Below, one piece after another: positions 4,823 through 22,300 of a DNA stretch of 52,002 nucleotides. The notes under the pieces were generated by a model. That model was not told the origin of the DNA and made no database searches. It saw only the letters and a list, made by a program, of their open reading frames with translations. Positions within the stretch are counted from its first letter, which is position 1; each line of letters begins with the position of its first letter. Source of the stretch: Sandaracinaceae bacterium (lineage in GTDB: Bacteria; Myxococcota_A; Polyangia; Polyangiales; Sandaracinaceae); the NCBI GenBank assembly GCA_019637095.1, contig JAHBWG010000069.1, positions 1-52,002 on the forward strand, given 5' to 3'. The position numbers and the translations under genes are program-made.

Positions 4823-5230
4823 ATGGCCGAGTTGATCGTCACCAAGATGCTCGCGGGGACCTGCAAGCAGAAGCTGAACTTCATCCAGGTGGCGCCAGAC
4901 ACGTGTCTCATTCCCGCGCCGCCCCCGCCGGCGGGCCCCAAGGGCATCCCGACCCCGATGGGATGCACCACCGACACGGGGAAGATCAAAGCGAACAAGG
5001 CCAACGGAGTTCGTCACAAGAACGGCGAGGTGCCGAACGTCAAGTCCACGTTCCCCGGCGTGAAGGGCAACGAGCCCGGCGTCGGTGACCTCCCGCCCGG
5101 AAAGCCGAAGAAGGGCGTCGTCTCGGGGGTCAATACGGGCTTCTGTGACGTGAAGAAGGGCTGCCCCAACTGCAAGGCTGGCGGCAAGGACTTCGTGTGG
5201 TTCTCGTCGCCAGGGACGGGCAACGGCTAG
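4823..5230 (+). CDS. DUF4150/PAAR-like type VI tip protein
   Basis: A 135-residue protein directly after the two vgrG genes. It has the pattern of DUF4150 (PAAR-like) proteins: a short N-terminal strand, a proline-rich turn ('TCLIPAPPPPAGPKGIPTP'), Gly/Asn-rich turns, 'GVVSGVNTGFCDVKKGCPNC' and a short C-terminal tail. Members of this family are thought to cap the VgrG spike and carry effectors. There is no C-terminal toxin domain here, so any effector would be a separate gene. The CPNC and FC cysteines could bind metal, but this is not shown. The ATG has a GGGAG-type ribosome site a few bases upstream and lies 19 bases after the vgrG stop. The gene ends 19 bases before the convergent lipoyl gene. 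Confidence 0.75.
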   Translation: MAELIVTKMLAGTCKQKLNFIQVAPDTCLIPAPPPPAGPKGIPTPMGCTTDTGKIKANKANGVRHKNGEVPNVKSTFPGVKGNEPGVGDLPPGKPKKGVVSGVNTGFCDVKKGCPNCKAGGKDFVWFSSPGTGNG

Positions 5231-5249: not shown

Positions 5250-5561
5250 CTACCGGGATCGAGGCTTGCCGAGATATCGGTAGAAGAGGGTGGGCGTCAG
5301 CTCCGTGGGCGACGCCTCGGAGGCCGCCAGCTCCAGCACGGCGACGACCATGCCTTCGGTGACGGGGTCCCCCTCCTCCGCACAGCGCTCCACCAAGCGA
5401 CAGGTGGTCGGCGCGCGGAGCTCCATGATCGCCTTGTCGGACTCGAGCTCCGCGTAGGGCTCGTCCGCCGCGAGGGCTGCACCGACGTCCACGATCCAGC
5501 GGCTGAGGCGGCAGGGCCCGACCGGTGGGAGGATCGGTAGGCGCACGGGACGACGCTTCAC
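5250..5561 (-). CDS. Small stand-alone biotinyl/lipoyl-domain protein
   Basis: A 103-residue protein that is essentially one biotinyl/lipoyl domain. It has the hairpin 'ELESDKAIMEL' with the candidate lipoylated lysine in DKA near residue 43, and the later half-domain 'CAEEGDPVTEGMVVAVLEL'. DKA is the lipoyl-type motif of 2-oxo-acid dehydrogenase E2 subunits; biotin carriers use MKM. The extra C-terminal tail (TLFYRYLGKPRSR) is not part of the domain. The start is a GTG that overlaps the TGA of the cysteine-cluster gene by 4 bases, so the two are probably co-translated. No E1, E2 core or E3 gene is nearby. Its acceptor role is therefore inferred from the motif alone. Confidence 0.8.
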   Translation of the reverse strand: MKRRPVRLPILPPVGPCRLSRWIVDVGAALAADEPYAELESDKAIMELRAPTTCRLVERCAEEGDPVTEGMVVAVLELAASEASPTELTPTLFYRYLGKPRSR

Positions 5562-6937
5562 GGCGACCCGTCGCTCGGGCCCGCTGCGTAGCTGTCGAGG
5601 CCGACCGCGCGGAAGAGCACTTCCACCACGGTGAGCGGCTCGGCAGCGCGCGGGTCGTCGGGGGGCGCCGCGGCGATCGCGCGCGCGAGCCAGAGCCGCA
5701 GCGCGCGGATGCGGAACGCCCTCGCGAGCGGGACACGACCGAGCGCATCGGCGTAGCCCCACGACGTGGCCGTGACGTAGAAGGCTTCCACCTCGGCGGC
5801 CCGGGATCCGAGTGGCGGAGCCGGCGGGAGCTCGGACTGCGCGATCCGATCGGCAGCCGCGACGATCCAGTCGAGCCCCGCGCGGGTGAAATCGGCCTCC
5901 GAACGGAACGTCGCGAGGGGCGCGCGCCAAGCGGAGACGGCCGCGCGCAGCTCCGAGAACGCCTCTCGAACCCGCGCCGTGTCCAGCTCGGGCTCCGTGG
6001 CGTACGCGGTCTCTGCGGCGTCGACGCCGCTCGACGCGAGCGCGCCGCCGATGGCCCAGAGCCCCGCGGCGACGTCGCGCGGTGGGGTCGCCGCGGCGAG
6101 GGCTCGGTAGAAGCGGCGAACTCCGGCGCGCGGCGCCGTGGTCGACCCGTCGAGCGTGACACGCTCCGGAAGCCGCGCGACGGGAACGAGGCGCGACACC
6201 TCCCGGAGCGTCCGGGCGCCCCGCGGAAACGGCGGGTCCCCGTGGGTCACGCCGATGCCATCGACCACGCACGCGCACTCGAAGGTGAAGGCCGCCCGAA
6301 CCGTCGCGCCGTCGTAGACGGACTGCATGGGGAAGGAGCGGCAGACGGACGGCTTCGCGGTGGTACCGGCGCGCGCGTGCAGCATGCAGCGCCGCTGGTC
6401 GTTCAGGTAGCCACAGCGCCCGTGGACCATGATCGGCGCGACGGGGCCCTCGTCCCGCGGGACACCCCGACTGGGGTAGAAGTCGTGGAGCTCATCGTCG
6501 AGCACCACGAGCGCGCGTCGTGCTTCGCGTGGGGTGAAGAGCACAGTCGAGAAGGCCTCGCAACATACGCCTCGCCCACTGCAGATGAGGGTCCACCCCG
6601 CGATCGCCTCGACGGGGACATCGAGCAAGTCCTCGTCGGGCTCGCCCGCATCATCGGGTGCGTCGAGGGGCCCCTCCGCCAGAAGCCCCTTCTCGTCGAG
6701 GTGCTCCAGGAACCCCGCGAGGTCGGTCGGTTCGGTTGCGATGCCTCGCGCTCGTGCCGCCAGCGCGACTCCCTCGATATCACGTGTCCCATCGGCTAGC
6801 GCGAGTACCTGCCATTGGACCGGCAGGATCTTCATCACCTGACACGACGCCTGGTCGTGCAATACGACTCGATCGGTGTCTGCGAGGTGACGCCGTGCGA
6901 TCACGCGGTCACTGAGACGGGGGCGCTTCGGCAGCAT
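5558..6937 (-). CDS. PqqD-like/YkgJ-type cysteine-cluster protein
   Basis: A protein of 459 residues from the ATG at 6937; a TTG 15 bases upstream is an alternative start. Residues about 1-90 look like a PqqD-like winged-helix domain ('VLHDQASCQVMKILPVQWQVLALADGTRDIEGVA', shown only in part as a pattern). Residues about 110-250 carry the YkgJ/FliB-type zinc or iron-sulfur cysteine cluster: CSGRGVCC, then GRCGYL...RRCMLH, then KPSVCRSFP and a later CAC. The C-terminal 200 residues are helical and unassigned. YkgJ-type proteins include the FliB flagellin lysine methylase, but no methyltransferase signature is visible. The stop overlaps the GTG of the lipoyl gene. Function is unknown; a partner role with the lipoyl protein is inference. 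Confidence 0.75.
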   Translation of the reverse strand: MLPKRPRLSDRVIARRHLADTDRVVLHDQASCQVMKILPVQWQVLALADGTRDIEGVALAARARGIATEPTDLAGFLEHLDEKGLLAEGPLDAPDDAGEPDEDLLDVPVEAIAGWTLICSGRGVCCEAFSTVLFTPREARRALVVLDDELHDFYPSRGVPRDEGPVAPIMVHGRCGYLNDQRRCMLHARAGTTAKPSVCRSFPMQSVYDGATVRAAFTFECACVVDGIGVTHGDPPFPRGARTLREVSRLVPVARLPERVTLDGSTTAPRAGVRRFYRALAAATPPRDVAAGLWAIGGALASSGVDAAETAYATEPELDTARVREAFSELRAAVSAWRAPLATFRSEADFTRAGLDWIVAAADRIAQSELPPAPPLGSRAAEVEAFYVTATSWGYADALGRVPLARAFRIRALRLWLARAIAAAPPDDPRAAEPLTVVEVLFRAVGLDSYAAGPSDGSP

Positions 6938-6950
6938 CCTGCGAGGATGC
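6934..6950 (-). promoter_or_regulatory. Perfect hairpin over the start codon of the cysteine-cluster gene
   Basis: A 7-bp perfect inverted repeat, GCATCCT-GCG-AGGATGC, that includes the ATG at 6937 and the preceding AGG. In the mRNA it could hide the start codon. GC-rich DNA forms chance hairpins, so a regulatory role is uncertain. Confidence 0.35.
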
Positions 6951-6955
6951 AACTA

Positions 6956-7474: not shown

Positions 7475-8917
7475 ATGCGAGACAGCGAGCGCGCGCCGCG
7501 GGCGGCGGAGATCGGGCTGAGCGTCGCGTTCGCGATCGCGTGGGTCGCCCTCGCGCGGCCGGGCGGGATCGACCTGCCGTACTACTGGGACGAGGCCGAC
7601 GTGTACGTGCCGGGCGCGAGGTGGGTGGCCGAGCACGGGCTGACCGTGACGCCGGGCGTGTTCCCCGACGACTACTCGCGCGGGCACCCGCCGCTGCTCT
7701 ACCTGCTGGCGGGGATCGCGTTCGCGCTCTTCGGGCCGTCGCCCGCGGTCGGGCACCTGGTGGTGCTGCCGTTCACCGTGCTCGCGCTCGCGGGCACGTA
7801 CCTCTTGGGCGCGCGGCTCTTCGGGCGCGAGGCGGGGGCGGCGGCGGCCCTGCTGCTCGGCACGACGCCGCTGTTCCTGTCGATCGGGAACATGCTCCTG
7901 CCGGAGCTGCCGCTCACCGCGCTCGCGGTGCTGTCGTTCCTCGCGCTCGCGCACGGCCGCGTCGCGACGGCGGCGATGCTCGGCGTGGCCGCGGTGCTGA
8001 TCAAGGAGACGGGGATCTTCGCCGCCGCTGGGGTGGGCGCGGCGATCCTGTTCGACGCGATCGAGCAAAAGAGGTTGCGCGCCTCGGCGGGGCGCATCGC
8101 GCTGGCGACGCTGCCGCTCGGCGCGCTCGGCGCGTTCTTCGTCTGGCAGAAGGCGCACGCCGGCTACTTCGTGTTCCCGCACCACGCGAACCTCCTCGCG
8201 GATCGGCCGATCGAGCTCGCGAACGTGGTGACCGTGGTGCCGTCGCTGCTCCTCTGGCACGGCCGCTGGGTGGTCATCGCCGCGGCGCTCGTGGCCACCG
8301 GCGTGCTGTTCGCGCGCCCGCGCGCGGGGCTCGCGCCGCGCTCGCCGAGCCGCCGCGCGCTGCTCGCGGGGATGCTCGTGGTGGTGCTCGGCAACGCGGC
8401 GTTCTTCGCGAAGATGTTCTGGCTCGAGCGCTACGCGCTGCCCGCGCACCCGCTCGTGCTCGTCGCGGCGTGCGGCGCGCTCTTCGCGTTCTCGTGGTCG
8501 GGCTGGCGCGCCGCGATCCCGTGGGCGGCGGTCGGCGCGGCCGCGCTGATCGGGGCGGCTTCCGTGCGCGCGCCGACCGCGCCGGACGCCGAAGAGCAGA
8601 CGTTCGCGTACGCCGACGTGATCGCGACGCACCAGGCGGCGTTCGCGACGCTCGGCGACGAGGCGTCGGTGCTCACGACGTGGCCGATGACGGTGGAGCT
8701 GCGCCACGCCTACCTCGGCTACGTCGCGCGCGATCACGTCGCGATCGACGTGCAGTACCTCGAGGCGCACGCGGACGTGTCGTTCACGCACGCGGTCGTC
8801 AACTCGGCCTCCACGCGCCGCGACGACGTGGTGCGCGCGGCGCGCGCGCGCGGGATGCGGCGGCTCGGCGTCCATCGGGTGGGTGTGGCGCCCGCGCTCG
8901 AGGTGTGGGGGCGATGA
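7475..8917 (+). CDS. GT39/ArnT-like membrane glycosyltransferase
   Basis: A 480-residue integral membrane protein of the dolichyl-phosphate-mannose/ArnT (PMT_2, GT39-like) superfamily, which transfers sugars from polyprenyl-phosphate donors on the outer face of the inner membrane. After a first membrane span it has 'YYWDEADVY' with the catalytic-type DE pair, then 'YSRGHPPLLYLLAG', which matches the family's first periplasmic loop. About nine hydrophobic segments follow. The C-terminal 130 residues form a soluble periplasmic domain. Its stop overlaps the start of the YfhO-like gene (ATGA), so the two are co-translated. Donor and acceptor cannot be told from the sequence. Confidence 0.85.
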   Translation: MRDSERAPRAAEIGLSVAFAIAWVALARPGGIDLPYYWDEADVYVPGARWVAEHGLTVTPGVFPDDYSRGHPPLLYLLAGIAFALFGPSPAVGHLVVLPFTVLALAGTYLLGARLFGREAGAAAALLLGTTPLFLSIGNMLLPELPLTALAVLSFLALAHGRVATAAMLGVAAVLIKETGIFAAAGVGAAILFDAIEQKRLRASAGRIALATLPLGALGAFFVWQKAHAGYFVFPHHANLLADRPIELANVVTVVPSLLLWHGRWVVIAAALVATGVLFARPRAGLAPRSPSRRALLAGMLVVVLGNAAFFAKMFWLERYALPAHPLVLVAACGALFAFSWSGWRAAIPWAAVGAAALIGAASVRAPTAPDAEEQTFAYADVIATHQAAFATLGDEASVLTTWPMTVELRHAYLGYVARDHVAIDVQYLEAHADVSFTHAVVNSASTRRDDVVRAARARGMRRLGVHRVGVAPALEVWGR

Positions 8918-11094
8918 CGCGCGAGGCGGTCGTCACGCACGGGGGCGCGGCGCACGGGGGCGCGGCGCTGGGGATCGTCGCGCTGGCGACCGCGCTCCTG
9001 TTCCTGCCGGCGTTCGAGGGGCGCTGGTTCGAGTGGGACGTGCCCGAGCAGTACTGGCCGGACCTCGTCTACTTGTGTTCCTCACTCCACGACGGCGAGC
9101 TGCCGCTCTGGAACCCGTACGACCGCGCGGGCTACCCGTACTACGCCGACCCGCAGGCGGGGACGTACCACCCGCTCCACTGGGCGATGTGCGCGCTGGG
9201 GCCGCGGCCGGGGCTCGGCTGGATGACGCTGCGCGTGGCGCTCGGGTTCTTCCTCGCGGGCGCCTTCGGCCTCCTGTGGCTGCGGCGGCTGCGCGTGCCG
9301 TGGAGCGGCGCGCTCGTCGGCGCGATCGTGATCGAGGCGGCGCCGTTCATGCGCCACAACTGGGAGCTCAACCTCACCCTCGCGCTCGCGCACCTGCCGC
9401 TGATCCTCTGGGCGACGGATCGCGCGGTGGTGGAGCGCCGCGCCGCCGACGGCGTCGTGCTCGGGTGGAGCGTGGCGCTGTGCGCGTGGGTCGGCTCGCC
9501 GCCCGCGCTCTGGCTCTCGCTCACGTTCGCCGCGCTCTACGCGCTCGCGCGGCTCGTGGGGGAGGTGCGGGCCGCGGGGCGCGGCGCGCTCTGGCCCGCG
9601 ATCGGCGCGCTCGCGATCGGCGCCATCGTCGCGGCGGGCCTCACCGCGGCGGTGATCGTGCCCGGGCTCGCGCTCGCGGAGCGCTCGGTCCAGGCGGGGC
9701 GCGACTACGCGTCGATCGCCGCCGAGGGTCTGTCGCCGGATCGGCTCGTCGCGCTCGCGTGGCCGCAGCCGGGCAACCACCTCTACGTCGGGCTCGTGCC
9801 GCTCGCGCTCGCGGGCGTCGCGCTCGCGACGCGGCGACCGCTCGCGATGTGGATGCTCGCGGTGGCGGTGATCGCGGTGCTGCTCGCGATGGGCGATCAC
9901 GGGCCGCTGTTCCGGCTCGCGTTCGAGTGGGTCCCGGGCGTGGATCGCTTCCGGTTGCCGTACCGCTACGAGGCGTGGCTCGGCCCGGCGGCGGGCGCGC
10001 TCGCCGCGCTCGGGATGGGGCGGCTCGCGCAGCGCGCCGAGGCGACGCCGCCGCGGAGCGCGCGCCCGCTCGCGGTGGTCGCGGCGCTCGCCGGTGTCCC
10101 GCTCGCGTTCGCGCTGCCCGCGCCTTCGATCGGGCTCGCGTGCTTGGCGGCGGCTGCGCTCCTCTGGGCGCTCGCGGAGCGGCGCGTGGGCTCGGTGTCG
10201 ATCGGCGCGTGCTTGGCGCTGCTCGTGCTCGCCGACGTCTCGACGGCGCTGCCGCCCGATCGGCACCTGCGCGGCGGCGCGCCGCCGGGCGACGACGCGA
10301 CGGCGGCCCGCGTCTTCGCCGAGGCGCCGGGCGAGGACCGCGTGGTGGACGAGTTCGCGATCTCGTGTCGCGCGGGGACGCGCCACGCGCGCCGCGAGCT
10401 CCGCGGCTACCAGGACCCGCTGACGCTGCGCGCGTTCGAGCGCGTGCTCGCGTCCCTGCGCGAGACGCCGGCGCTCGCGGAGCAATACGGCGTGCGCTAC
10501 GCGCTCCAGGGCCCACACTTCCTGCACGGTTGGGACCGGCACTTCCTCCCGCCGCCGGCGGCGCTGCGCGCGCAGCCCGGCGCGGTCGCGCGCGCGCACG
10601 GCGTGACGGAGCTGACCCGCGCGCTGCCGAGCGCGTACTGGGTCGACGCGGGGTCGGTCGAGCACGCGGCCGATCGCGCCGCCGCGCTCGAGCGCGTGCG
10701 CGCGCTCGCGCCCGCGCCGATCGCGATCCTCGACGGCGTGACCGAGGGGAGCCCGCGGACCGGCGCCGGCGCCCTCCCCGCTTCGGTCCTCGCCGCGACC
10801 GACGTCGTGATCGGCCGCGACCGCGTCGCGCTGTCGATCGACGCGCCGCAGGGCGGCGTCGTGGTCGTCAACGAGGCCTTCTATCCTGGCTGGGAGGCGC
10901 GCGTGGACGGCGCGCCCGCGCCCATCTACCGCGCGAACGCGCTCGTCCGGGCGATCCCCGTGTCAGCCGGCGCGCACCGCGTCACGATGGAGTTCGCGCC
11001 GCGCGACGGCGCGCCGCTGCGGTGGCTGCTCCTCGTGACGCTCATCGCGAGCGCCCTCGCGTTCGCGCTCCTCCGCCGCCCCTCGGCTCGATGA
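8914..11094 (+). CDS. YfhO-family multi-span membrane protein
   Basis: A 726-residue membrane protein. It has the YfhO signature after the first span: 'SLHDGELPLWNPYDRAGYP' followed by the PQAGTYHPL turn. Many hydrophobic Ala/Leu segments follow up to about residue 470. The C-terminal beta-rich domain contains 'NEAFYPGWEARVDGAPAPI', the typical YfhO tail. YfhO proteins are GT-C-like and in Gram-positive bacteria help glycosylate lipoteichoic acid; the substrate here is unknown. The start is the ATG in an ATGA overlap with the GT39-like gene, which implies a shared glycan-transfer job. The much longer open frame upstream of this ATG runs through the preceding gene in another frame and is not real. 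Confidence 0.85.
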   Translation: MTREAVVTHGGAAHGGAALGIVALATALLFLPAFEGRWFEWDVPEQYWPDLVYLCSSLHDGELPLWNPYDRAGYPYYADPQAGTYHPLHWAMCALGPRPGLGWMTLRVALGFFLAGAFGLLWLRRLRVPWSGALVGAIVIEAAPFMRHNWELNLTLALAHLPLILWATDRAVVERRAADGVVLGWSVALCAWVGSPPALWLSLTFAALYALARLVGEVRAAGRGALWPAIGALAIGAIVAAGLTAAVIVPGLALAERSVQAGRDYASIAAEGLSPDRLVALAWPQPGNHLYVGLVPLALAGVALATRRPLAMWMLAVAVIAVLLAMGDHGPLFRLAFEWVPGVDRFRLPYRYEAWLGPAAGALAALGMGRLAQRAEATPPRSARPLAVVAALAGVPLAFALPAPSIGLACLAAAALLWALAERRVGSVSIGACLALLVLADVSTALPPDRHLRGGAPPGDDATAARVFAEAPGEDRVVDEFAISCRAGTRHARRELRGYQDPLTLRAFERVLASLRETPALAEQYGVRYALQGPHFLHGWDRHFLPPPAALRAQPGAVARAHGVTELTRALPSAYWVDAGSVEHAADRAAALERVRALAPAPIAILDGVTEGSPRTGAGALPASVLAATDVVIGRDRVALSIDAPQGGVVVVNEAFYPGWEARVDGAPAPIYRANALVRAIPVSAGAHRVTMEFAPRDGAPLRWLLLVTLIASALAFALLRRPSAR

Positions 11095-12193: not shown

Positions 12194-14035
12194 ATGAGGA
12201 GCCGGCCGCCGCGGAGCACGCTCGTCGAGGTGCGCCTGCTCGTGGACAACGTGCGCCGCGCGGTCGGGCTCGCGCTGCGCCTCGAGCGCGGGCTGACCGC
12301 GCGCTACGTGATCGTGTCCGTGTTCAACGCGCTGCTCCCCGTCGCGATCGCGTGGGTCGGCAAGGAGATCGTGGACGCGGTCGTCACCGCGATGGGCACG
12401 CCGGACCACCCGCTCGGGGCGACGCTCTTCTGGGTGGCGATCGAGCTGTGCCTCATCCTCGCCGCCCACGCGAGCGGGCAGTACCTCGGCTACGTGCAAC
12501 AACTGTTGCGCGCGCGGCTCGCGCTGCACGTCGACGTGGTGATCTTCGACAAGGCCCTGCGCCTGGGCGTGAAGCACTTCGAGGACCCGGAGTTCATGGA
12601 CGTGCTCGAGCGCGCGCGCAAAGAGTCGAGCTGGCGCCCGCTCGAGATGATCACCAACGGCCTGCGCCTCGCGCGCAACGTGGTGACCCTCGTCGGCTTC
12701 GCGCTGCTCCTCGCGCAGTTCAGCGGCTGGGCCGTGCTCGCGCTCACCCTCGCGGGGCTCCCGTTCCTCGCGGAGGTCCGCTACGCGGCCGAGCAGTACA
12801 CGATCAAGGCGCGCCGCACGCAGGACGAGCGCCAGGCCCATTACCTGCAACAGCTCTTGACGAGCGACTACTACGTCAAGGAGGTGAAGCTGTTCGCGCT
12901 CGGGCCGATGCTCCTCGGCCGGCACCGCGACCTCCACGAGCGCTTCTACGCCGAGGACCGCGCGTTCGCGCGCCGCCGCGGCGCCGCGGTGACGGCGCTC
13001 GGGATGATCAGCGTGGGCGTCTTCTACGCGATCTACGTGGTGATCGTCGGACAGACCGCGATCGGCGCGATCACCCTCGGCTCGATGACGCTCTACCTCG
13101 GCGTGTTCCGCCAGGGGCAAGACGCCTTCCGCAGCGCGATGAGCAGCATCGCGGGCGCGTACGAGGACAACCTCTACATCCAGAACCTCTTCGACTACCT
13201 CGCGATCGAGGACGACGACGTCGCCCGCTCGGGCCCGGGCGACGGAGCGCCGAAGGACGCGGCCGGCCCGCGGATCCGGTTCGAGGGCGTCGGCTTCGAC
13301 TACCCGGGCTCCGAGCGCCCCGCGCTCGACGGGATCGACCTCGACATCGCGCCGGGCTCGACGGTCGCGCTCGTCGGCCCGAACGGCGCGGGCAAGACCA
13401 CGCTGATCAAGCTGCTCGTCGGGCTCTATCCGCTCGACCGCGGGAAGATCTTCATCGGCGACGACGACCTCGCGACGCTCGACAAGGGCGAGGTGCGCAG
13501 CCGCATCGGCGTGCTCTTCCAGGACTTCGTGCACTACCACTTCAGCGCGGCCGACAACGTCGGCATCGGGTGGCTCCCCGCGCTCGAGGACCGCGCCGCG
13601 GTCGAGGAGGCCGCGCGGCAGGCGGGCGCCGACGCGCTGATTGAGGCGCTGCCGCAGGGCTACGACACGATGCTCGGGCGCTGGTTCGGCGGCGAGCAGC
13701 TCTCGGTCGGGCAGTGGCAGCGCATGGCGCTCGCGCGCGCGTTCATGCGCAAGAGCCGCGTGCTGATCCTCGACGAGCCGACGGCGGCGATCGACGCCGA
13801 GGGCGAGCACGAGATCTTCGAGCGGTTCGCGGAGCTCAAGCAGGGCGCGACCGCGATCCTCATCACGCACCGCTTCAGCACGGTGCGGATGGCGGACCGG
13901 ATCGTGGTGCTCGACGAGGGCCGGATCGTCGAGACGGGCACGCACGCGGAGCTGCTCGCGAAGGGCGGGCTCTACGCGCGGATGTGGAGCCTGCAGGCCG
14001 AGGGCTACCTCGAGGCGGGAGCGGCGAGCGCGTGA
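12194..14035 (+). CDS. ABC exporter, fused permease and ATPase (first copy)
   Basis: A 613-residue half-transporter with an N-terminal six-helix permease (about residues 30-330) and a C-terminal ATPase. Walker A is GPNGAGKTT near residue 395, followed by a Q-loop (VLFQDFVHYHF), the signature LSVGQWQRM near 503, Walker B VLILDEPTAAID near 522 and a switch His (LITHR). It should act as a homodimeric exporter of a lipid, peptide or glycoconjugate. No C39 peptidase domain precedes the permease. The stop overlaps the GTG of the deacetylase/glycosyltransferase fusion gene, which ties the exporter to that locus. It is clearly paralogous to the transporter at 31364. Confidence 0.92.
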   Translation: MRSRPPRSTLVEVRLLVDNVRRAVGLALRLERGLTARYVIVSVFNALLPVAIAWVGKEIVDAVVTAMGTPDHPLGATLFWVAIELCLILAAHASGQYLGYVQQLLRARLALHVDVVIFDKALRLGVKHFEDPEFMDVLERARKESSWRPLEMITNGLRLARNVVTLVGFALLLAQFSGWAVLALTLAGLPFLAEVRYAAEQYTIKARRTQDERQAHYLQQLLTSDYYVKEVKLFALGPMLLGRHRDLHERFYAEDRAFARRRGAAVTALGMISVGVFYAIYVVIVGQTAIGAITLGSMTLYLGVFRQGQDAFRSAMSSIAGAYEDNLYIQNLFDYLAIEDDDVARSGPGDGAPKDAAGPRIRFEGVGFDYPGSERPALDGIDLDIAPGSTVALVGPNGAGKTTLIKLLVGLYPLDRGKIFIGDDDLATLDKGEVRSRIGVLFQDFVHYHFSAADNVGIGWLPALEDRAAVEEAARQAGADALIEALPQGYDTMLGRWFGGEQLSVGQWQRMALARAFMRKSRVLILDEPTAAIDAEGEHEIFERFAELKQGATAILITHRFSTVRMADRIVVLDEGRIVETGTHAELLAKGGLYARMWSLQAEGYLEAGAASA

Positions 14036-16068
14036 GCCACGCGAACAACCTCTACTTCCACTACGCGAGCGCGGGCGCGTCGCCGCGCCGCATGACGATC
14101 TCCGTCGAGGCGCTCGCGCGCGTGGTCGAGGCGGAGCGCGCGGCCGGCCGGCGCCCGGGGCGGCTCACCGAGTACCTCGACGGGGCACCGGACGGCGCGT
14201 GCTTCACCGTCTCGTTCGACGACGCGCACGCGTCGGTGCTCGCGCACGCGGCGCCCCTGCTCGCGGAGCTCGACGTGCCGGCGACGCTGTTCGTCCCGAC
14301 CGCGTTCGTCGGCACCTCGGACGAGCTGCTCGACTGGGACGCGCTCGGCCGGCTGCGCGAGCTCGGCTGGACGCTCGGCGCGCACTCGCACACGCACCCG
14401 CGCATGGGCTGGCGCCTCTACGACGAGGACGAGGCCGCCCACCGCGCGCGCCTCCTCGACGAGTGCGTCCGCGCGCGCGAGACGATGGCGCGCGAGCTCG
14501 GCGAGGCGCCGCGGCTCTTCGCGTACCCCTTCGGCGAGGCGCCCGACCTCGCGCGCGAGGCGGTCGCCGCCGCGGGCTACGACGCCGCGTTCACCGTCGC
14601 GCCGAGCGCCGCGTGGGACGGCGATCGCCTGCGCATCCCGCGCGTCGAGGGCCAGCCGCCGCCGCCCGGCGTCTCCGAGGCGCGCACCTCGTTCAGCGTG
14701 GTGGTGCCCGCGTTCGAGCGGGTGAAGATCCTGAGCGAGGTGGTGACGCGCCTCGCGAAGCAGACCTACCCGCGCGATCGCTACGAGGTGATCGTCGTCG
14801 ACGACGGATCGCGCGAAGACGTGTCGCCGATCTTCGCCGAGATGCCAGAGAACGTGCGGCTCGTGCGGCAAGGAGACGCGGCGTTCCGCGCCGGCCAGGC
14901 GCGGCAGCGCGGCGCGCGCGAGGCGCGGCACGACGTGCTCGCGTTCCTCGACGCCGACGTCGCGGTCGGCAAGGACTTCCTGTGGCACCTCGACTGGGCG
15001 CACCGGCACGTCGAGGACGCGGTGCTGCTCGGCTACCTCTCCGGCTACAACCTCCACGACCTCGGCCACGTCCACACGCTCGACGAGGTGCGCGGCCAGG
15101 ACCTCGATCGGCTGCGCGTCATCCCGGACCGCTCGCGCGAGCCCGCCCTGCGCGCGACGTTCGATCACCCCGAGTGGCTCGACGACCCGTGGACGCTCAC
15201 CTATACGGGGAACGTCTCGTTGTCACGCTCGCTCTTCGAGCGGGTGGGCGGGTTCGCGGACGACTTCGTCGGCTGGGGCCTCGAGGACCTCGACCTCGGC
15301 TATCGTCTGCACCGCGCCGGCGCGCGCTTCGTGTTCTCGCGGTTCGCGATCGGGTTCCACCTCACGGACCCGCACGAGGCCGCGCCGCGGAACCCGTTTC
15401 GCCGCCGCGCGCCGACGCGCGACGCGTTCGCGGGCTACCTCGCGAACCTCGCGCGCCTCGAGGCCGCGCACGCGGGCGACCCGGCCATCGCCGCGTTCGC
15501 CGCGCGCTCGCGCGCCGACGTCGAGGAGACCTGCTCGCGGCCGCACACGGTCGGCATCGAGTGGGGCGGCGCGGCCACCGTGCGCTCGCCGTGGCACCGG
15601 CGGTTGCACCGCGTGATCCCGGGCGGCGTCCCGCTCCACGAGCTGTGCGATCGCGTCGCGTACGCCGAGAAGGTGCGGGCGCGGAGCGTGTACGTGCTCG
15701 GCGGCGCCCCGGCCGAGCACGGCGCGTTCCTCGAGGTGGTGCGGCGCGCGCGCGACGTCGTCGAGTGGGTCGCGATGCGCACGCTCGTGTACCCGTTCGC
15801 CGCGCCGGGGCTCGCGCGGGCGGCGCGAGCGGCCGGCGTCGTCGCCGCGACGTGCGAGGTCCACGCGATGCGCCGCGACGTGCACGAGGCGATCCTCGGG
15901 CCGGACACCTTCGACGCGTTCCGCCGCGGGCTCGACGCGCTCGCCGAGGCAGGCATCGAGCGCTCGGCGCGCGTCGTGCGCTCGCCCCGCGCCGCGGCCG
16001 CGCACGAGGACACCCTCGCCGCGCTCGCCGCCGAGGGCATCCGCGTCGACGAGGTCGTCGAGCTGTGA
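14032..16068 (+). CDS. Polysaccharide deacetylase, GT2 glycosyltransferase and degenerate radical-SAM-like fusion
   Basis: A 678-residue three-part protein. Residues about 50-215 form a NodB-type deacetylase ('TVSFDDAH' metal Asp, HSHTHP motif near 117, 'FAYPFGEAP'). From 222 there is a GT2 nucleotide-sugar transferase ('SVVVPAFERVKIL', 'VIVVDDGS', 'AFLDADVAV') with the C-terminal acceptor module 'WGLEDLDLGYRLHRAG' near 414. Residues about 504-678 resemble the radical SAM barrel in outline: 'VYVLGGAPAEHGAFLEVVRRA' at the GGEP position and 'VHEAILGPDTFDAFRRGLDA' at the usual late strand. The CxxxCxxC cluster is absent, so this part cannot bind the usual 4Fe-4S cluster. It starts at a GTGA overlap with the ABC exporter. 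The transferase part is paralogous to the gene at 17310. Confidence 0.82.
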   Translation: MSHANNLYFHYASAGASPRRMTISVEALARVVEAERAAGRRPGRLTEYLDGAPDGACFTVSFDDAHASVLAHAAPLLAELDVPATLFVPTAFVGTSDELLDWDALGRLRELGWTLGAHSHTHPRMGWRLYDEDEAAHRARLLDECVRARETMARELGEAPRLFAYPFGEAPDLAREAVAAAGYDAAFTVAPSAAWDGDRLRIPRVEGQPPPPGVSEARTSFSVVVPAFERVKILSEVVTRLAKQTYPRDRYEVIVVDDGSREDVSPIFAEMPENVRLVRQGDAAFRAGQARQRGAREARHDVLAFLDADVAVGKDFLWHLDWAHRHVEDAVLLGYLSGYNLHDLGHVHTLDEVRGQDLDRLRVIPDRSREPALRATFDHPEWLDDPWTLTYTGNVSLSRSLFERVGGFADDFVGWGLEDLDLGYRLHRAGARFVFSRFAIGFHLTDPHEAAPRNPFRRRAPTRDAFAGYLANLARLEAAHAGDPAIAAFAARSRADVEETCSRPHTVGIEWGGAATVRSPWHRRLHRVIPGGVPLHELCDRVAYAEKVRARSVYVLGGAPAEHGAFLEVVRRARDVVEWVAMRTLVYPFAAPGLARAARAAGVVAATCEVHAMRRDVHEAILGPDTFDAFRRGLDALAEAGIERSARVVRSPRAAAAHEDTLAALAAEGIRVDEVVEL

Positions 16069-16139: not shown

Positions 16140-17198
16140 TCAGAGATCGGTGCGCTCGGTCCCCTCGAGCTCGAGGATGAAGTCCGCGCCGTACATCATC
16201 GCCGGCGTCCGGTAGCCCGCGGCGAAGTCGCCTTCGAGGACGCGCTCCGCGATCGCGAGCGACGCGATCGCCGTGAGCGTGTATCCCTCTGGACATCGCA
16301 AGCGAGCCTGCGCCTTGGTGGTGCCCTCCCGCGCCTCGCCCCAGAGGAGACTGAACGCCCGCGCGCGCTGCGCGTCGGTCGGCCCGGCGGGGCCGGCGTC
16401 GACGCGCCGCTGGAGCCGGCGCCGCACCGGCGCGCTGCCGAGCAGCCCGCCGAGGTAGCCCGCGACGCGCGCGCCGACCTGCGCGCTGCGCGGGACCGCC
16501 GTGTACACCTCGATGTTCGGGATCCCCGTCGAGGCGTAGGCGGTCGACACGTCGCCCCACGGGATCGAGAGGGTCGGGACCGGGCCGCGGCCGAAGTCGA
16601 CCTCACGCCGGAGCTCGCCGAGGCGGACGTCGGTGAGCGCGCCGTCGCGGCGGACGCGGTTCGGGCGACCCAGGCTCTCGACCATCGTCGTCGCCGTGCC
16701 GTGCGAGGTCTTGCCGCCGACCGAGGTGAACGCGAGCACGAGGTGCGTCGCCTCGGGCAGCCGTCGCTTCAGGTGGTTGGCGAGGCAGTCCGACGGCACC
16801 ACGTCGAAGCCCGTCCCCGGCATGAGCATCACGCCCGCGCGCTCCGCCTCGCCGCCGCGCGCCGCGCACGCCTCGAAGACGTCGATCTCGCCGGTGATGT
16901 CGAGGTAGTGGGTGCCCGTCCGCAAGCACGCGTCGACCATCGGCTCGCTCGTCCGCGAGAAGGGGCCCGCCGCGTGGATCACCACGTCGACGTCGGCGAG
17001 CCCGCGATCGAGCGCGGGCGGGTCGTCGAGCCCGAACGCGCGGTGCGGCAGCCCCAGCTCTTCGGCGAGCGCGGCGACCTTCGAGGCCGAGCGCCCCGCG
17101 AGGATCGGCAGGGCGCCACCGGCCGCGGCCCGCCGCGCGATGAGGTCGCCGGTGTAGCCGTACGCCCCGTAGATCAGGCAACGCGAGAGGTTCGTCAT
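16140..17198 (-). CDS. Saccharopine dehydrogenase-like NAD(P)-binding protein
   Basis: A 352-residue protein with an N-terminal Rossmann fold ('IYGAYGYTGDLIARRAAAGG' and a GRSASKV NADP-type follow-up). It is typical of the saccharopine dehydrogenase-like/trans-acting enoyl reductase group. Middle motifs fit the family: 'VIHAAGPFSRTSEPMVDACL', 'THYLDITGEI' and 'MPGTGFDVVPSDCLA'. Such proteins are oxidoreductases of varied or unknown substrate. It starts at the ATG at 17198. It is the only minus-strand gene inside the plus-strand biosynthetic locus. It converges on the fusion gene and diverges from the next glycosyltransferase, so it is probably transcribed separately. Confidence 0.88.
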   Translation of the reverse strand: MTNLSRCLIYGAYGYTGDLIARRAAAGGALPILAGRSASKVAALAEELGLPHRAFGLDDPPALDRGLADVDVVIHAAGPFSRTSEPMVDACLRTGTHYLDITGEIDVFEACAARGGEAERAGVMLMPGTGFDVVPSDCLANHLKRRLPEATHLVLAFTSVGGKTSHGTATTMVESLGRPNRVRRDGALTDVRLGELRREVDFGRGPVPTLSIPWGDVSTAYASTGIPNIEVYTAVPRSAQVGARVAGYLGGLLGSAPVRRRLQRRVDAGPAGPTDAQRARAFSLLWGEAREGTTKAQARLRCPEGYTLTAIASLAIAERVLEGDFAAGYRTPAMMYGADFILELEGTERTDL

Positions 17199-17309
17199 GG
17201 TGGCGCACCGTAGCCTCCGATCGAGCCGCGGCGCACGCGCCACCTCGCCCGCGAAGGAGATCGAGCGGTTGAGGCGGCTCGGCGTCGGTGGCATGGTTGG
17301 CGCCGTCTC

Positions 17310-18290
17310 GTGAACGCCACCCTCGTCATCCCGACCTACAACCGCGCGGAGCGGCTGCGGTCCCTGCTCGACTGCCTCACTCGGCAAGCGACGCACCGGC
17401 TCGCGCGCGTCGTCGTCGGAGACGACGGCTCCTCGGACCACACCGCCGAGGTGGTACAGAGCTTCGCGGACCGGCTGCCGATCGTGCACGCGTACCAGGA
17501 AGACCTCGGCTTCCGCGCGGGGCAGGCCCGCAACCTCGGGATCGAGCGGGCGATCGGCGACGTGGTGATCTTCGCGGACGACGACGTGCTCGTCGGGCCC
17601 GACTACGTCGAGGCGCACCTCTCTCTGCACGAGGCGCGGCGCGGGGAGCGCATGGTGGTCCTCGGGCCGCGCCACCGCACGCTCGCGTTCGACGGCGCCA
17701 CACCCGGCCCGGCGGACTTCGCGCGCGCCGAGCGCGACGATCGCATCGCCGACCTCGAGGGTCGCTCCGTCGACACGCACGAGGCGCCGTGGATCTTCGT
17801 CTACTCGTGCAACTTCTCGGTCACCCGCGGCGGCCCCGAGCTCCGCTTCGACGACGGCTTCTCGGGCTGGGGCCTCGAGGACACCGAGCTCGGCTATCGC
17901 CTCCACCACGCCGGCTACCGCATCGTCGAGGAGCCGCGCGCCCAGGTGCTCCACGTCGACGACGACGCGCCGCGCGATCCGTTCCGGTGCGAAGCACGCC
18001 AGCTCCCGCCGAGCTACGACACCTACGTCGAGAACGCCGTCCGGTTCATGGACCTCTACCCGGCCGACCCGGTGCTCGCGCGGTTCATCCGGCAAGACCT
18101 GCGGTGGTACGTGCGCGACGCCCACGGGCGCTGGGTGAAGAACGGCTACGAGAACGACGTCGAGCACGTCATCGCCGAGTGTCGACAGCGGCGCACGCGC
18201 GCCGCGGGCGCCGGCGACGACCGGACGGCCGAGAGGACGCTCGACAGGACGCTCGACAGGACGCTCGAGAGGACGGTCGAGAGCCCGTGA
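17310..18290 (+). CDS. GT2-family glycosyltransferase with a chondroitin-synthase-like acceptor module
   Basis: A protein of 326 residues from a GTG start. It has the GT-A nucleotide-sugar fold: 'LVIPTYNRAERLRSLLDCL', 'VVVGDDGSSDHT', the donor/metal motif 'IFADDDVLV' and the acceptor motif 'GWGLEDTELGYRLHHAG'. The motif set matches the transferase half of the gene at 14032 (both also share FRAGQAR), so the two are paralogues. It has no membrane segment. The last ~20 residues are a low-complexity RTL(D/E) repeat made by a 12-bp DNA repeat. The stop overlaps the GTG of the first radical SAM gene, which starts a tight run of five plus-strand genes. Confidence 0.9.
   Translation: MNATLVIPTYNRAERLRSLLDCLTRQATHRLARVVVGDDGSSDHTAEVVQSFADRLPIVHAYQEDLGFRAGQARNLGIERAIGDVVIFADDDVLVGPDYVEAHLSLHEARRGERMVVLGPRHRTLAFDGATPGPADFARAERDDRIADLEGRSVDTHEAPWIFVYSCNFSVTRGGPELRFDDGFSGWGLEDTELGYRLHHAGYRIVEEPRAQVLHVDDDAPRDPFRCEARQLPPSYDTYVENAVRFMDLYPADPVLARFIRQDLRWYVRDAHGRWVKNGYENDVEHVIAECRQRRTRAAGAGDDRTAERTLDRTLDRTLERTVESP
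18231..18278 (+). repeat. Four tandem 12-bp repeats at a gene 3' end
   Basis: Four copies of a GA(G/C)AGGACG(C/G)TC unit at 18231-18242, 18243-18254, 18255-18266 and 18267-18278. They encode the RTL(D/E) tail of the glycosyltransferase just before its stop, which overlaps the next gene's start. The unit length keeps the reading frame. Confidence 0.9.
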
Positions 18291-19288
18291 ACCCCTTCAC
18301 CCCCCTCCGCGCGAGCGGCTCGCTCGGCCGGCCGCTCGACGAGATCGCCATCGAGCTGACCGTCTACTGCAACCTCAAGTGCGTGATGTGCAGCGTCTGG
18401 GAGCTCGGCCAGCACGGCGTCCCGTTCGAGAACGTCGCGAAGATCCTCCGGCAGGCGCGCGCGCTCGGCGCGCACACCTTCACGCCGTGCGGCGCCGAGA
18501 GCTTCATGCGCAAGGACTTCCTCGACGTCGTCGAGCTCGCCCAGGAGCTCGGCTACCGCCGGCAGGACATCGTCACCAACGGCACGATGATCACCGAGGC
18601 GCACATGGACCGCCTCGCGCGCTGCCCGTCGGTCGCGCTGCACGTGAGCATCGACGGGCCGCGCCCGATCCACGACGCCCTGCGCGGCGAGGGCAACTAC
18701 GACAAGTCCGTCGAGACCGTGAGGCGCTGCCTCGCGCGCGGGATCGAGGTCGGCCTCTCGGGCGTGATCCTCAAGGAGTCGCTCGAGCACCTGCGCGCGC
18801 TCGTCACGCTCGCGCACGAGCTCGGGATCGGCGAGGTGAGCTTCCAGCCGTTCCAGCTCGAGATCAGCGGGCCCGACAAGGAGCTGCACCGCTTCTCGCT
18901 CATGCGCTCGCCGCGCGAGCGGATCGTCGCCGCGCTCGAGGACGTGAAGGCGCACGCGGACCGGCTCGGCGTCCGCATCTTCACCGAGTCGATGTTCTCG
19001 GTGATCCCCGACTACCTCACGCTCGGCACGCGGCCGATCCCGCCGGGCGGCTGCTTCCTCCCGAGCAAGTTCCTGCTCGTCGACTTCCGCGGCGACGTCT
19101 ACCCGTGCTTCTTCATGCGGACCGACGCCGACCGGATGGGGAACGTGCTCACCGACGAGATCACCGATCTCTGGCAGTCGGTGCACCACCGGCAGCTGCA
19201 GACGCTGGCGCTCACCGAGCGCTGCCCCGGGTGCCTCGCCGCGTGCTCGGACGTCGAGAGCTTCGCGACCGCCGGAGCGGCCGAGTGA
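18287..19288 (+). CDS. Radical SAM protein with SPASM-like C-terminus (first)
   Basis: A protein of 333 residues from a GTG that overlaps the upstream stop. It has the 4Fe-4S/SAM motif CNLKCVMC (C28, C32, C35) after a strand, as in peptide- and small-molecule-modifying radical SAM enzymes. The usual GGEP SAM-contact motif is replaced by 'CGAES'. C-terminal cysteines in 'PGGCFLPSKFLLVDFRGDVYP', 'CFFM' and 'CPGCLAAC' form a SPASM/twitch-like region for extra clusters, with a 'GNVLTDEITDLW' segment typical of SPASM proteins. It is followed by a second radical SAM gene through another GTGA overlap. The substrate is unknown; glycosyltransferase neighbours point to a sugar or peptide conjugate. Confidence 0.9.
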   Translation: MNPFTPLRASGSLGRPLDEIAIELTVYCNLKCVMCSVWELGQHGVPFENVAKILRQARALGAHTFTPCGAESFMRKDFLDVVELAQELGYRRQDIVTNGTMITEAHMDRLARCPSVALHVSIDGPRPIHDALRGEGNYDKSVETVRRCLARGIEVGLSGVILKESLEHLRALVTLAHELGIGEVSFQPFQLEISGPDKELHRFSLMRSPRERIVAALEDVKAHADRLGVRIFTESMFSVIPDYLTLGTRPIPPGGCFLPSKFLLVDFRGDVYPCFFMRTDADRMGNVLTDEITDLWQSVHHRQLQTLALTERCPGCLAACSDVESFATAGAAE

Positions 19289-20514: not shown

Positions 20515-21480
20515 ATGACCGAAGCTCGCGAGAGGGCGCTGCGCGGCGTCAACGTCCCTTACTTGCGCGGGGACTACGGGCACGACCTCGCGCCCAACCC
20601 GCGCTTCGATGACTGGCCGGTGTCGTTCGACCCGATGCACGCGTACCGCCCGCTCATCGAGGCGCGCGACCTGGGCTTCGAGGCGGTGCGCCTCTGGCTC
20701 TGTGAGAACGCCGAGGGGCTGCTCGTCGAGGACGGGCGCGTGGTCGGGGTGCACGACGACCTCTACCGCGCGCTCGACGTGATCCAGGAGGCGGCGGCGC
20801 TCCACGGCGTGCGGCTCTACCCGTGCTTGCTCGACGCCAACGCGTGGCCGCGCGAGGGCGATCCGATCACGCGCGCGATCCTCGCCGACGCCGACGCCGC
20901 CGCGCGCTTCGCGGAGCGGGCGGTCGCGCCGATCGCGGCGCGCCTCGATCCGTCGCTGCTCGTCGCGCTCGAGATCGTGAACGAGCCCGAGACCGCCACC
21001 TCCGAGTGCATCGAGCCCGGCGGACCGGCGCCGGTCGCGTGGGACGCGATCGGGCGCGCGGTCCGCCTCGCGGGCGAGGCCGCGCGCGCCGAACGGCCGC
21101 TGCTCGTCGGCGCGGGCACGGGGCACGTCTTCTTGCCCTCCCTCTGGCGCGCGGACCCGCGGGTGGACCTGGTGGACGTCCACGCCTACCACGCGAACGG
21201 CGGCCTTCCGTCGCGCGCGCAGCTCGCCGAGTACGTGGGCGAGCCGCGCCTGCTCGACCCGCGCCTGCCGCTGATCGCGGGCGAGGCCGGCATCCCGAAG
21301 GAGGACGGCGCGGACGACGACGCGCTCGCGCACTACGTCTACAACGCCGACACGCTCGGCTACGCCGCGGTGTTCCTGTGGGAGCTCGAGCACGCGCTCG
21401 TCGAGGGATCGGGGCGCGAGCGCTCGACCACCGCGCTCGGCGAGCTCATCCGCCACACGCTGCGCGTCTCGGCCGGGTGA
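20515..21480 (+). CDS. GH5-like (cellulase-superfamily) glycoside hydrolase
   Basis: A 321-residue TIM-barrel hydrolase candidate. The start 'RGVNVPYLRGDYG' resembles the GH5/clan A first strand. The proton donor fits 'EIVNEPE' (E157 in NEP) and the nucleophile fits 'LIAGEAGIPKEDG' (E257); both are on expected barrel strands. 'VDVHAYHANGG' supplies the active-site His/Tyr strand. There is no signal peptide, so it works inside the cell unless exported otherwise, which is unusual for a cellulase-type enzyme and suggests trimming of an intermediate. It begins 3 bases after the radical SAM stop and ends 4 bases before the methyltransferase, so it belongs to the operon. Confidence 0.82.
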   Translation: MTEARERALRGVNVPYLRGDYGHDLAPNPRFDDWPVSFDPMHAYRPLIEARDLGFEAVRLWLCENAEGLLVEDGRVVGVHDDLYRALDVIQEAAALHGVRLYPCLLDANAWPREGDPITRAILADADAAARFAERAVAPIAARLDPSLLVALEIVNEPETATSECIEPGGPAPVAWDAIGRAVRLAGEAARAERPLLVGAGTGHVFLPSLWRADPRVDLVDVHAYHANGGLPSRAQLAEYVGEPRLLDPRLPLIAGEAGIPKEDGADDDALAHYVYNADTLGYAAVFLWELEHALVEGSGRERSTTALGELIRHTLRVSAG

Positions 21481-21484
21481 CGCG

Positions 21485-22300
21485 GTGCTCGGTGCGCTCG
21501 ACTGGGATCGGTACTGGCGCTTCGAGCGCTTCCGCCGTCGCTGCGATCCGCTCGACTTCCGGCGCTGGAAGCGCGACAGCCAGCGCGCGCTCAAGGGCCT
21601 GTACCCCGGGCGGCCGCGCTTGTGCGACGCGACGGCGGGCCTGGGCGATCACACCGTCAACCTCGCGGAGGAGGGCTTCGAGGTCGAGGCGTGCGACACC
21701 TCGCCCGTCGCGCGCGAGGCGACGCGCGCGGCGCTCGCCGAGGCTGGGCTCGACGTCCCCGTGCACGACGTCGAGTGGGCGCGGCTCGGCGAGGGCGGCC
21801 CGCGCTACGACCTGGTGTTCAACGACGCCGTGCACTGGGTCTACGACGAGGCGCCGCTCCGCGCGGCGCTCACGGGGATGCTCGCCGCGCTCCGCCCGGG
21901 CGGCGCGCTCGTCTACTTCTTCGCCGACGCGAGCGAGCCCGACGCCGACGCGGGCCGCCGGATCCTCGAGTGGGACGCGGCGCACCTCGAGCCCGCGCGG
22001 ATCGCCTGGGAGCACGAGCGCGACGGCACGCGCGTCGGCCTCACCCTCGTCGCGTCGCGCGGCGACGACTTCATCGACGAGCACCACCTCTACCACGTGC
22101 GCGAGGGCGGCGGCCCCACGCGGCTCGAGACGCTCACCATGCGCCGGGTCTACCGCTGGGATCACTTCCACCTCGCCCCGATCCTCACCGACGTGGGCTT
22201 CGTCGAGCTGCGCACCGACCACTTCGACAACGTGAAGGGCCACCGCTTCGCGATGAACCGCGCATTCAAGCCGCGGTCCGCTAGGGGACGATCCTCGTGA
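21485..22300 (+). CDS. Class I SAM-dependent methyltransferase
   Basis: A protein of 271 residues from a GTG. It has a class I methyltransferase fold: 'LCDATAGLGDHTVNLAEEGF' (motif I with a GLG in place of the GxGxG core), 'VEACDTSPVA' (motif II acidic residue), 'YDLVFNDAVHWVYD' (motif IV) and 'LRPGGALVYFF' (post-motif). The long C-terminal part with many His and Trp residues may close over the substrate. It is the last gene of the plus-strand locus, 4 bases after the hydrolase stop. The target atom (O, N or C) cannot be predicted. Confidence 0.88.
   Translation: MLGALDWDRYWRFERFRRRCDPLDFRRWKRDSQRALKGLYPGRPRLCDATAGLGDHTVNLAEEGFEVEACDTSPVAREATRAALAEAGLDVPVHDVEWARLGEGGPRYDLVFNDAVHWVYDEAPLRAALTGMLAALRPGGALVYFFADASEPDADAGRRILEWDAAHLEPARIAWEHERDGTRVGLTLVASRGDDFIDEHHLYHVREGGGPTRLETLTMRRVYRWDHFHLAPILTDVGFVELRTDHFDNVKGHRFAMNRAFKPRSARGRSS

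Follow-up and report, generated by a model that had tools for sequence, protein, structure and literature searches.

What does a radical SAM domain without its cluster cysteines do at the end of a glycosyltransferase? The question is raised by one gene of the window (the whole 52,002-nucleotide stretch of DNA analysed), which is read from a GTG start into a 678-residue protein combining a NodB-type deacetylase, a GT2 glycosyltransferase and a tail that resembles a radical SAM core (Table 1). Few enzyme superfamilies are as large as that of the radical SAM enzymes. To our knowledge, retained but dead members joined to other enzymes have hardly been described, and open-access full text yielded no report of this architecture or of radical SAM domains that are conserved despite being dead. 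The first-pass annotation of this DNA had described the tail as fused to two carbohydrate-active domains, and Pfam identified both, with their motifs intact. In the deacetylase (PF01522), SFDD and HxxxH were invariant among orthologues, which preserves the DD/HxxxH signature of the family. The glycosyltransferase part comprised a GT2 match at residues 222–317 (1.3e-18) and a Glyco_transf_7C match at residues 387–440, and it retained the DDG, DxD and GWGLED motifs expected of GT2 enzymes in all nine distinct orthologues. The same three domains were present at all 14 orthologue loci examined, so the architecture is not an artefact. Hydropathy revealed no transmembrane segment, and the start of the gene overlaps the stop of the ABC-exporter gene upstream by 4 bases (GTGA); the protein should therefore be cytosolic.

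Table 1. Features of the three-domain gene and its neighbours (positions in the window)
Feature	Position	Strand	Basis or remark
PMT_2-type membrane glycosyltransferase	7475..8917	+	Present in the same 10 genomes
YfhO-like polytopic membrane protein	8914..11094	+	Strong orthologues in module genomes
ABC exporter, MsbA-like	12194..14035	+	Overlaps start of three-domain gene
Three-domain protein, predicted cytosolic (NodB-type deacetylase, GT2 glycosyltransferase, pseudo-radical-SAM tail)	14032..16068	+	Pfam, motifs, hydropathy
Polysaccharide deacetylase domain, residues 54–185	14191..14586	+	Pfam Polysacc_deac_1, 8.5e-20
GT2 domain and Glyco_transf_7C, residues 222–440	14695..15351	+	Pfam, motifs
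Pseudo-radical-SAM domain, residues 504–678	15541..16065	+	Predicted (beta/alpha)6 barrel without cluster cysteines
Site of lost CxxxCxxC, residues 515–522 (ATVRSPWH)	15574..15597	+	Alignment to intact radical SAM proteins and L018
Saccharopine dehydrogenase-like NADP-binding protein	about 16140–17213	-	Between three-domain gene and GT2–rS1–rS2 operon
Second GT2 glycosyltransferase, EpsD-like	17310..18290	+	Present in the same 10 genomes
rS1, intact radical SAM/SPASM enzyme, CNLKCVMC	18299..19288	+	Sequence motifs
rS2, intact radical SAM enzyme, CNLTCQMC, with N-terminal CxxC...CxxC zinc-ribbon-like segment	19291..20511	+	

An AlphaFold model of residues 495–678, built from nine orthologues without templates, had a pLDDT of 93.8 and showed six strands alternating with helices in a (beta/alpha)6 barrel. 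When this model was compared with the PDB by Foldseek, radical SAM enzymes were all 50 of the matches listed, with MoaA (1.4e-7) and BlsE (1.5e-7) at the top. VIA-align gave Z scores of 14.8–15.7 against the radical SAM cores of BlsE, MoaA, SkfB, NifB and viperin (NifB 15.7, viperin 15.2, SkfB 15.2, BlsE 14.9), and the PDB matches that it listed were likewise all radical SAM enzymes. A profile of the nine tails, used as sequence alone, matched BlsE at 1.1e-7 and PqqE at 2.6e-4. The GGEP motif of the radical SAM core (PF04055) recurs in the tails in variable form, and residues 537–644 matched that Pfam family with an E value of 5.4e-5, a sub-threshold match at 23.9 bits (curated cut-off 29.5). 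By its modelled fold the tail is thus a radical SAM domain, a partial TIM barrel, and the suspicion first raised about residues 504–678 was upheld by the model, Foldseek and VIA alike. It differs from the canonical core in having no CxxxCxxC or conserved cysteine, a variable glutamate in GGEP and no auxiliary-cluster domain. The full-length model was moderately confident (pLDDT 81.7, pTM 0.59), so the arrangement of the domains is left out of the argument.

The missing CxxxCxxC noted in the first-pass annotation was evident on alignment to about 40 ordinary radical SAM proteins, in which A515, S519 and H522 of the window's tail occupied the cluster positions. The other landmarks it had listed, a GGAP and a late VHEAILG...FRRGLDALAEAGI stretch, were also in place. 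Close orthologues carry alanine or serine, serine or glycine, and histidine or phenylalanine at the three cluster positions, and in L019 and L020 this loop diverges further and contains a three-residue insertion. No cysteine is conserved across the tails of nine distinct orthologues, three of which contain no cysteine at all. The GGEP position reads GGEP in four of the nine tails, GGAP in two and GGAV or GGDV in three. By its cluster positions, the tail does not count as a radical SAM enzyme, for which the three cysteines are defining.

The tails form a single clade (support 100/99) from which L018, an orthologue from another family, branches first, and L018 reads C-xxx-C-xx-H at the cluster positions. 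Because this deepest branch keeps such a remnant, the tail appears to be an old, decayed radical SAM core. The two-cysteine state of L018, the lack of any conserved cysteine and the complete GGEP in four of nine tails together indicate that the decay was gradual and old. In the L018 tail (1007–1669, minus strand; CRNHCAFHRELNRC), a further cysteine lies nine residues past the second cluster cysteine. With its two cluster cysteines, histidine and additional cysteine, this one tail might still bind a cluster. We consider it very improbable that the tail is an active radical SAM enzyme that binds a cluster through unusual ligands: the L018 arrangement and the retention of the former-cluster histidine in most orthologues would fit such an enzyme, but a third of the nine tails lack cysteine altogether and none is conserved. 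The search for cysteine-bearing homologues that the first-pass annotation had suggested succeeded only in part, as L018 has two of the three cysteines but no homologue with all three was found in 289 genomes of the class and 377 of the phylum. Beyond the orthologues, the phylum search (377 genomes) recovered ordinary radical SAM proteins only, the best at 79 bits. Derivation of the tail from rS1 or rS2 was also considered and found unsupported, as the tree separates the tails, rS1 and rS2 into their own clades, with weak support for the deep branches.

We also examined how the tail is conserved. It is the most divergent of the three domains, with pairwise identities of 27–58% except for the G185–G235 pair. 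Between L019 and L020, dN was 0.217 and dS 0.515 in the tail, a ratio of 0.42 compared with 0.20 for the glycosyltransferase and 0.28 for the deacetylase. The tail is thus under purifying selection; its faster evolution relative to the catalytic domains would also be expected of a domain that is mainly structural or is fading. Strand 1 had a mean identity of 65%, the former cysteine loop 48%, the segment between helix 1 and GGEP 60% and the second half 29–35%, and stretches of the first half matched the deacetylase in conservation. Fifteen residues are invariant, including E510, G512, G513, G531, G532, E537, R541, G557 and G558 in the first half, on the side of the former cluster and SAM sites. 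In true radical SAM enzymes, the corresponding half of the barrel holds the cluster and SAM.

One explanation for this pattern is that the tail is a relic of an ancestral fusion of a glycosyltransferase and a radical SAM enzyme, with a barrel that serves folding or stability only and has no partner or ligand. The overall divergence of the tail, the worn GGEP of three of the nine orthologues (GGAV or GGDV) and the drift of the second half of the barrel are all consistent with a relic. However, the tail was present and untruncated in every orthologue found, dN is below dS, the parts of its first half conserved like the deacetylase would be surprising in a relic, and conservation is sharp around the former cradle, with 15 invariant residues; we regard this explanation as unlikely, if far from negligible. 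The conserved cluster and SAM cradle suggests instead a reused surface. The ligand of such a surface could be a different small molecule, such as a nucleotide sugar or an acceptor lipid phosphate, whose binding would regulate or feed the glycosyltransferase. This possibility draws on the invariant residues listed above and on BlsE, the best solved relative by profile, which acts on a sugar nucleoside, as its name indicates; the conserved glycines may merely serve turns of the barrel, and we rate ligand binding as rather improbable.

The surroundings of the gene suggest possible partners. The two intact radical SAM genes that had been placed beside the tail are indeed nearby, but the minus-strand saccharopine dehydrogenase-like gene intervenes. 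Orthologues of rS1 keep CxxxCxxC and the SPASM domain. In those of rS2, CxxxCxxC, four C-terminal cysteines and the N-terminal CxxC...CxxC ribbon are all invariant. The ribbon directly precedes the radical SAM core, and an N-terminal zinc-ribbon-like segment in this position is, as far as we know, unusual.

The three-domain gene, rS1 and rS2 share one distribution: of 289 class genomes, the same ten and no others contain them, each as a single copy. These ten genomes represent three families and eight genera; within the window's own family, four further genomes lack all three genes. The naive chance of two random sets of ten being identical is 1e-18, which is not a p-value, as the genomes are related. 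Among 13 genomes checked, the second GT2 gene and the PMT_2 gene were present in the same ten and absent from three controls. Strong matches to the YfhO-like protein were present in all of the ten except G005, where the match was weaker (37–45%); matches of 32–35% in four additional genomes make this component less specific to the module. The YfhO-like neighbour was also tried as a negative control and proved unusable, since the gene tracks the module. In G189, G223, G224, G185 and G235, the membrane genes have an ABC exporter orthologue (56–74%) next to them or close by.

The three-domain gene adjoins the GT2–rS1–rS2 genes in the window, G141 and G189. In G164, G223, G224, G185, G235 and G005, it lies on a different contig from the radical SAM pair, and such genomes make up at least 6 of the 10, with no adjacency within the flanks available. 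The strength of the co-occurrence lies in this co-retention despite dispersal, together with the patchy presence of the genes. It indicates a common pathway, not contact. The identical 10/289 presence, which extends to genes that are not adjacent, supports the proposal that the tail works with the two radical SAM enzymes nearby. As the tail is conserved as a set with rS1, rS2 and the membrane sugar transferases even though the genes are scattered, it is probably a repurposed partner domain. We give an even chance to the reading that it is a non-catalytic, decayed radical SAM core kept as a partner domain beside rS1 and rS2 in a glycan pathway.

Evolutionary distances gave a further indication of partnership. 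Across nine genomes, distances of the tail correlated with those of rS1, rS2 and the second glycosyltransferase (r 0.77–0.84), compared with r 0.54–0.60 for the deacetylase and 0.55–0.69 for the glycosyltransferase domain of the same chain against the same partners. When the body of the protein was partialled out, the correlation of the tail was r 0.59–0.65 in these nine genomes (permutation p 0.01–0.03). The rpoB distances used as a control were only roughly usable, and we take the tail–partner correlation as suggestive only.

Judged by their families, the proteins, two of them polytopic and resembling membrane glycosyltransferases, together look like a system that assembles a lipid-linked or surface glycoconjugate and exports it. 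In the scheme that we propose, the cytosolic deacetylase and GT2 domains would construct a sugar unit or trim it, and the barrel of the tail would hold this unit, or the protein itself, next to rS1 and rS2. These enzymes could then perform a radical step on the same product, modifying the glycan or its carrier. The second GT2 enzyme would extend the sugar unit, the ABC exporter would carry the product over the membrane, and the PMT_2- and YfhO-type membrane proteins would finish it outside. The tail most likely serves to dock the glycosyltransferase to the radical SAM enzymes or to present its product to them. We infer each of three elements of this scheme: the glycan substrate, the order of the steps and the docking or presenting role. 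In its strongest form, the idea makes the pseudo-radical-SAM domain an obligate adaptor without catalytic activity, through which the deacetylase–glycosyltransferase is coupled to both radical SAM enzymes of a hitherto undescribed pathway for surface glycans in Polyangia; this form is tentative and in our judgement has a somewhat less than even prospect of being right. A peptide is also a possible substrate of rS1 and rS2. We found no conserved precursor-peptide frame beside them (BLAST 1e-6, phmmer 0.01, open frames of at least 20 amino acids), in a search that could miss very short or distant precursors.

The module points to radical chemistry in surface-glycan assembly, of which we found no report in the open-access literature. 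If the adaptor idea is true, a growing glycan would undergo radical chemistry on a scaffold formed by a dead radical SAM paralogue. The dead tail is accompanied by a defined group of co-inherited genes, numbering at least six, so that the proposed partnership and the product can both be put to the test.

To place the module among known systems, we compared its proteins with NCBIfam families. Among the families we met, only the haloarchaeal pseudo-SAM/SPASM family TIGR04347 bears a name that denotes a non-catalytic paralogue of radical SAM enzymes. Against its cut-off of 525 bits, rS2 and rS1 scored 62–75 bits and the L018 tail 18.6 bits (E 9e-4), and the isolated tail from the window gave no match at E 0.001. 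The tail of the three-domain protein thus lies outside this family. The mycofactocin system likewise places a SPASM-type radical SAM enzyme beside a GT2 enzyme. The best NCBIfam match of rS1 was MftC at 81 bits (cut-off 265), and the GT2 domain of the three-domain protein matched MftF at 71 bits (cut-off 280), both far below threshold. Unlike mycofactocin, the module showed no conserved short frame by its radical SAM genes, and it contains membrane glycosyltransferases and an exporter. Both GT2 domains matched the exopolysaccharide glycosyltransferase EpsD (NF041875) best, at 128 and 117 bits (cut-off 370), with the match limited to the GT2 region. We read the module as an undescribed glycoconjugate-assembly system. 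For a role in defence, matches to pVip (viperin) were only generic, at 62 bits for rS2 and 41 bits for rS1, and several other radical SAM families scored higher.

Several further genes of the window were also noted. A GH5-like protein (a weak match) and a methyltransferase follow rS2 at 20515–22300, and a relative of the GH5-like protein was found near the module only in G141 and G218. Upstream, 5558–6952 on the minus strand encodes a protein with a weak match to the CxxCxxCC metal-chelating domain (PF03692), and 4823–5230 encodes a small Tox-PAAR-like protein (PF13665, 5.5e-10), possibly part of a type VI secretion tip.
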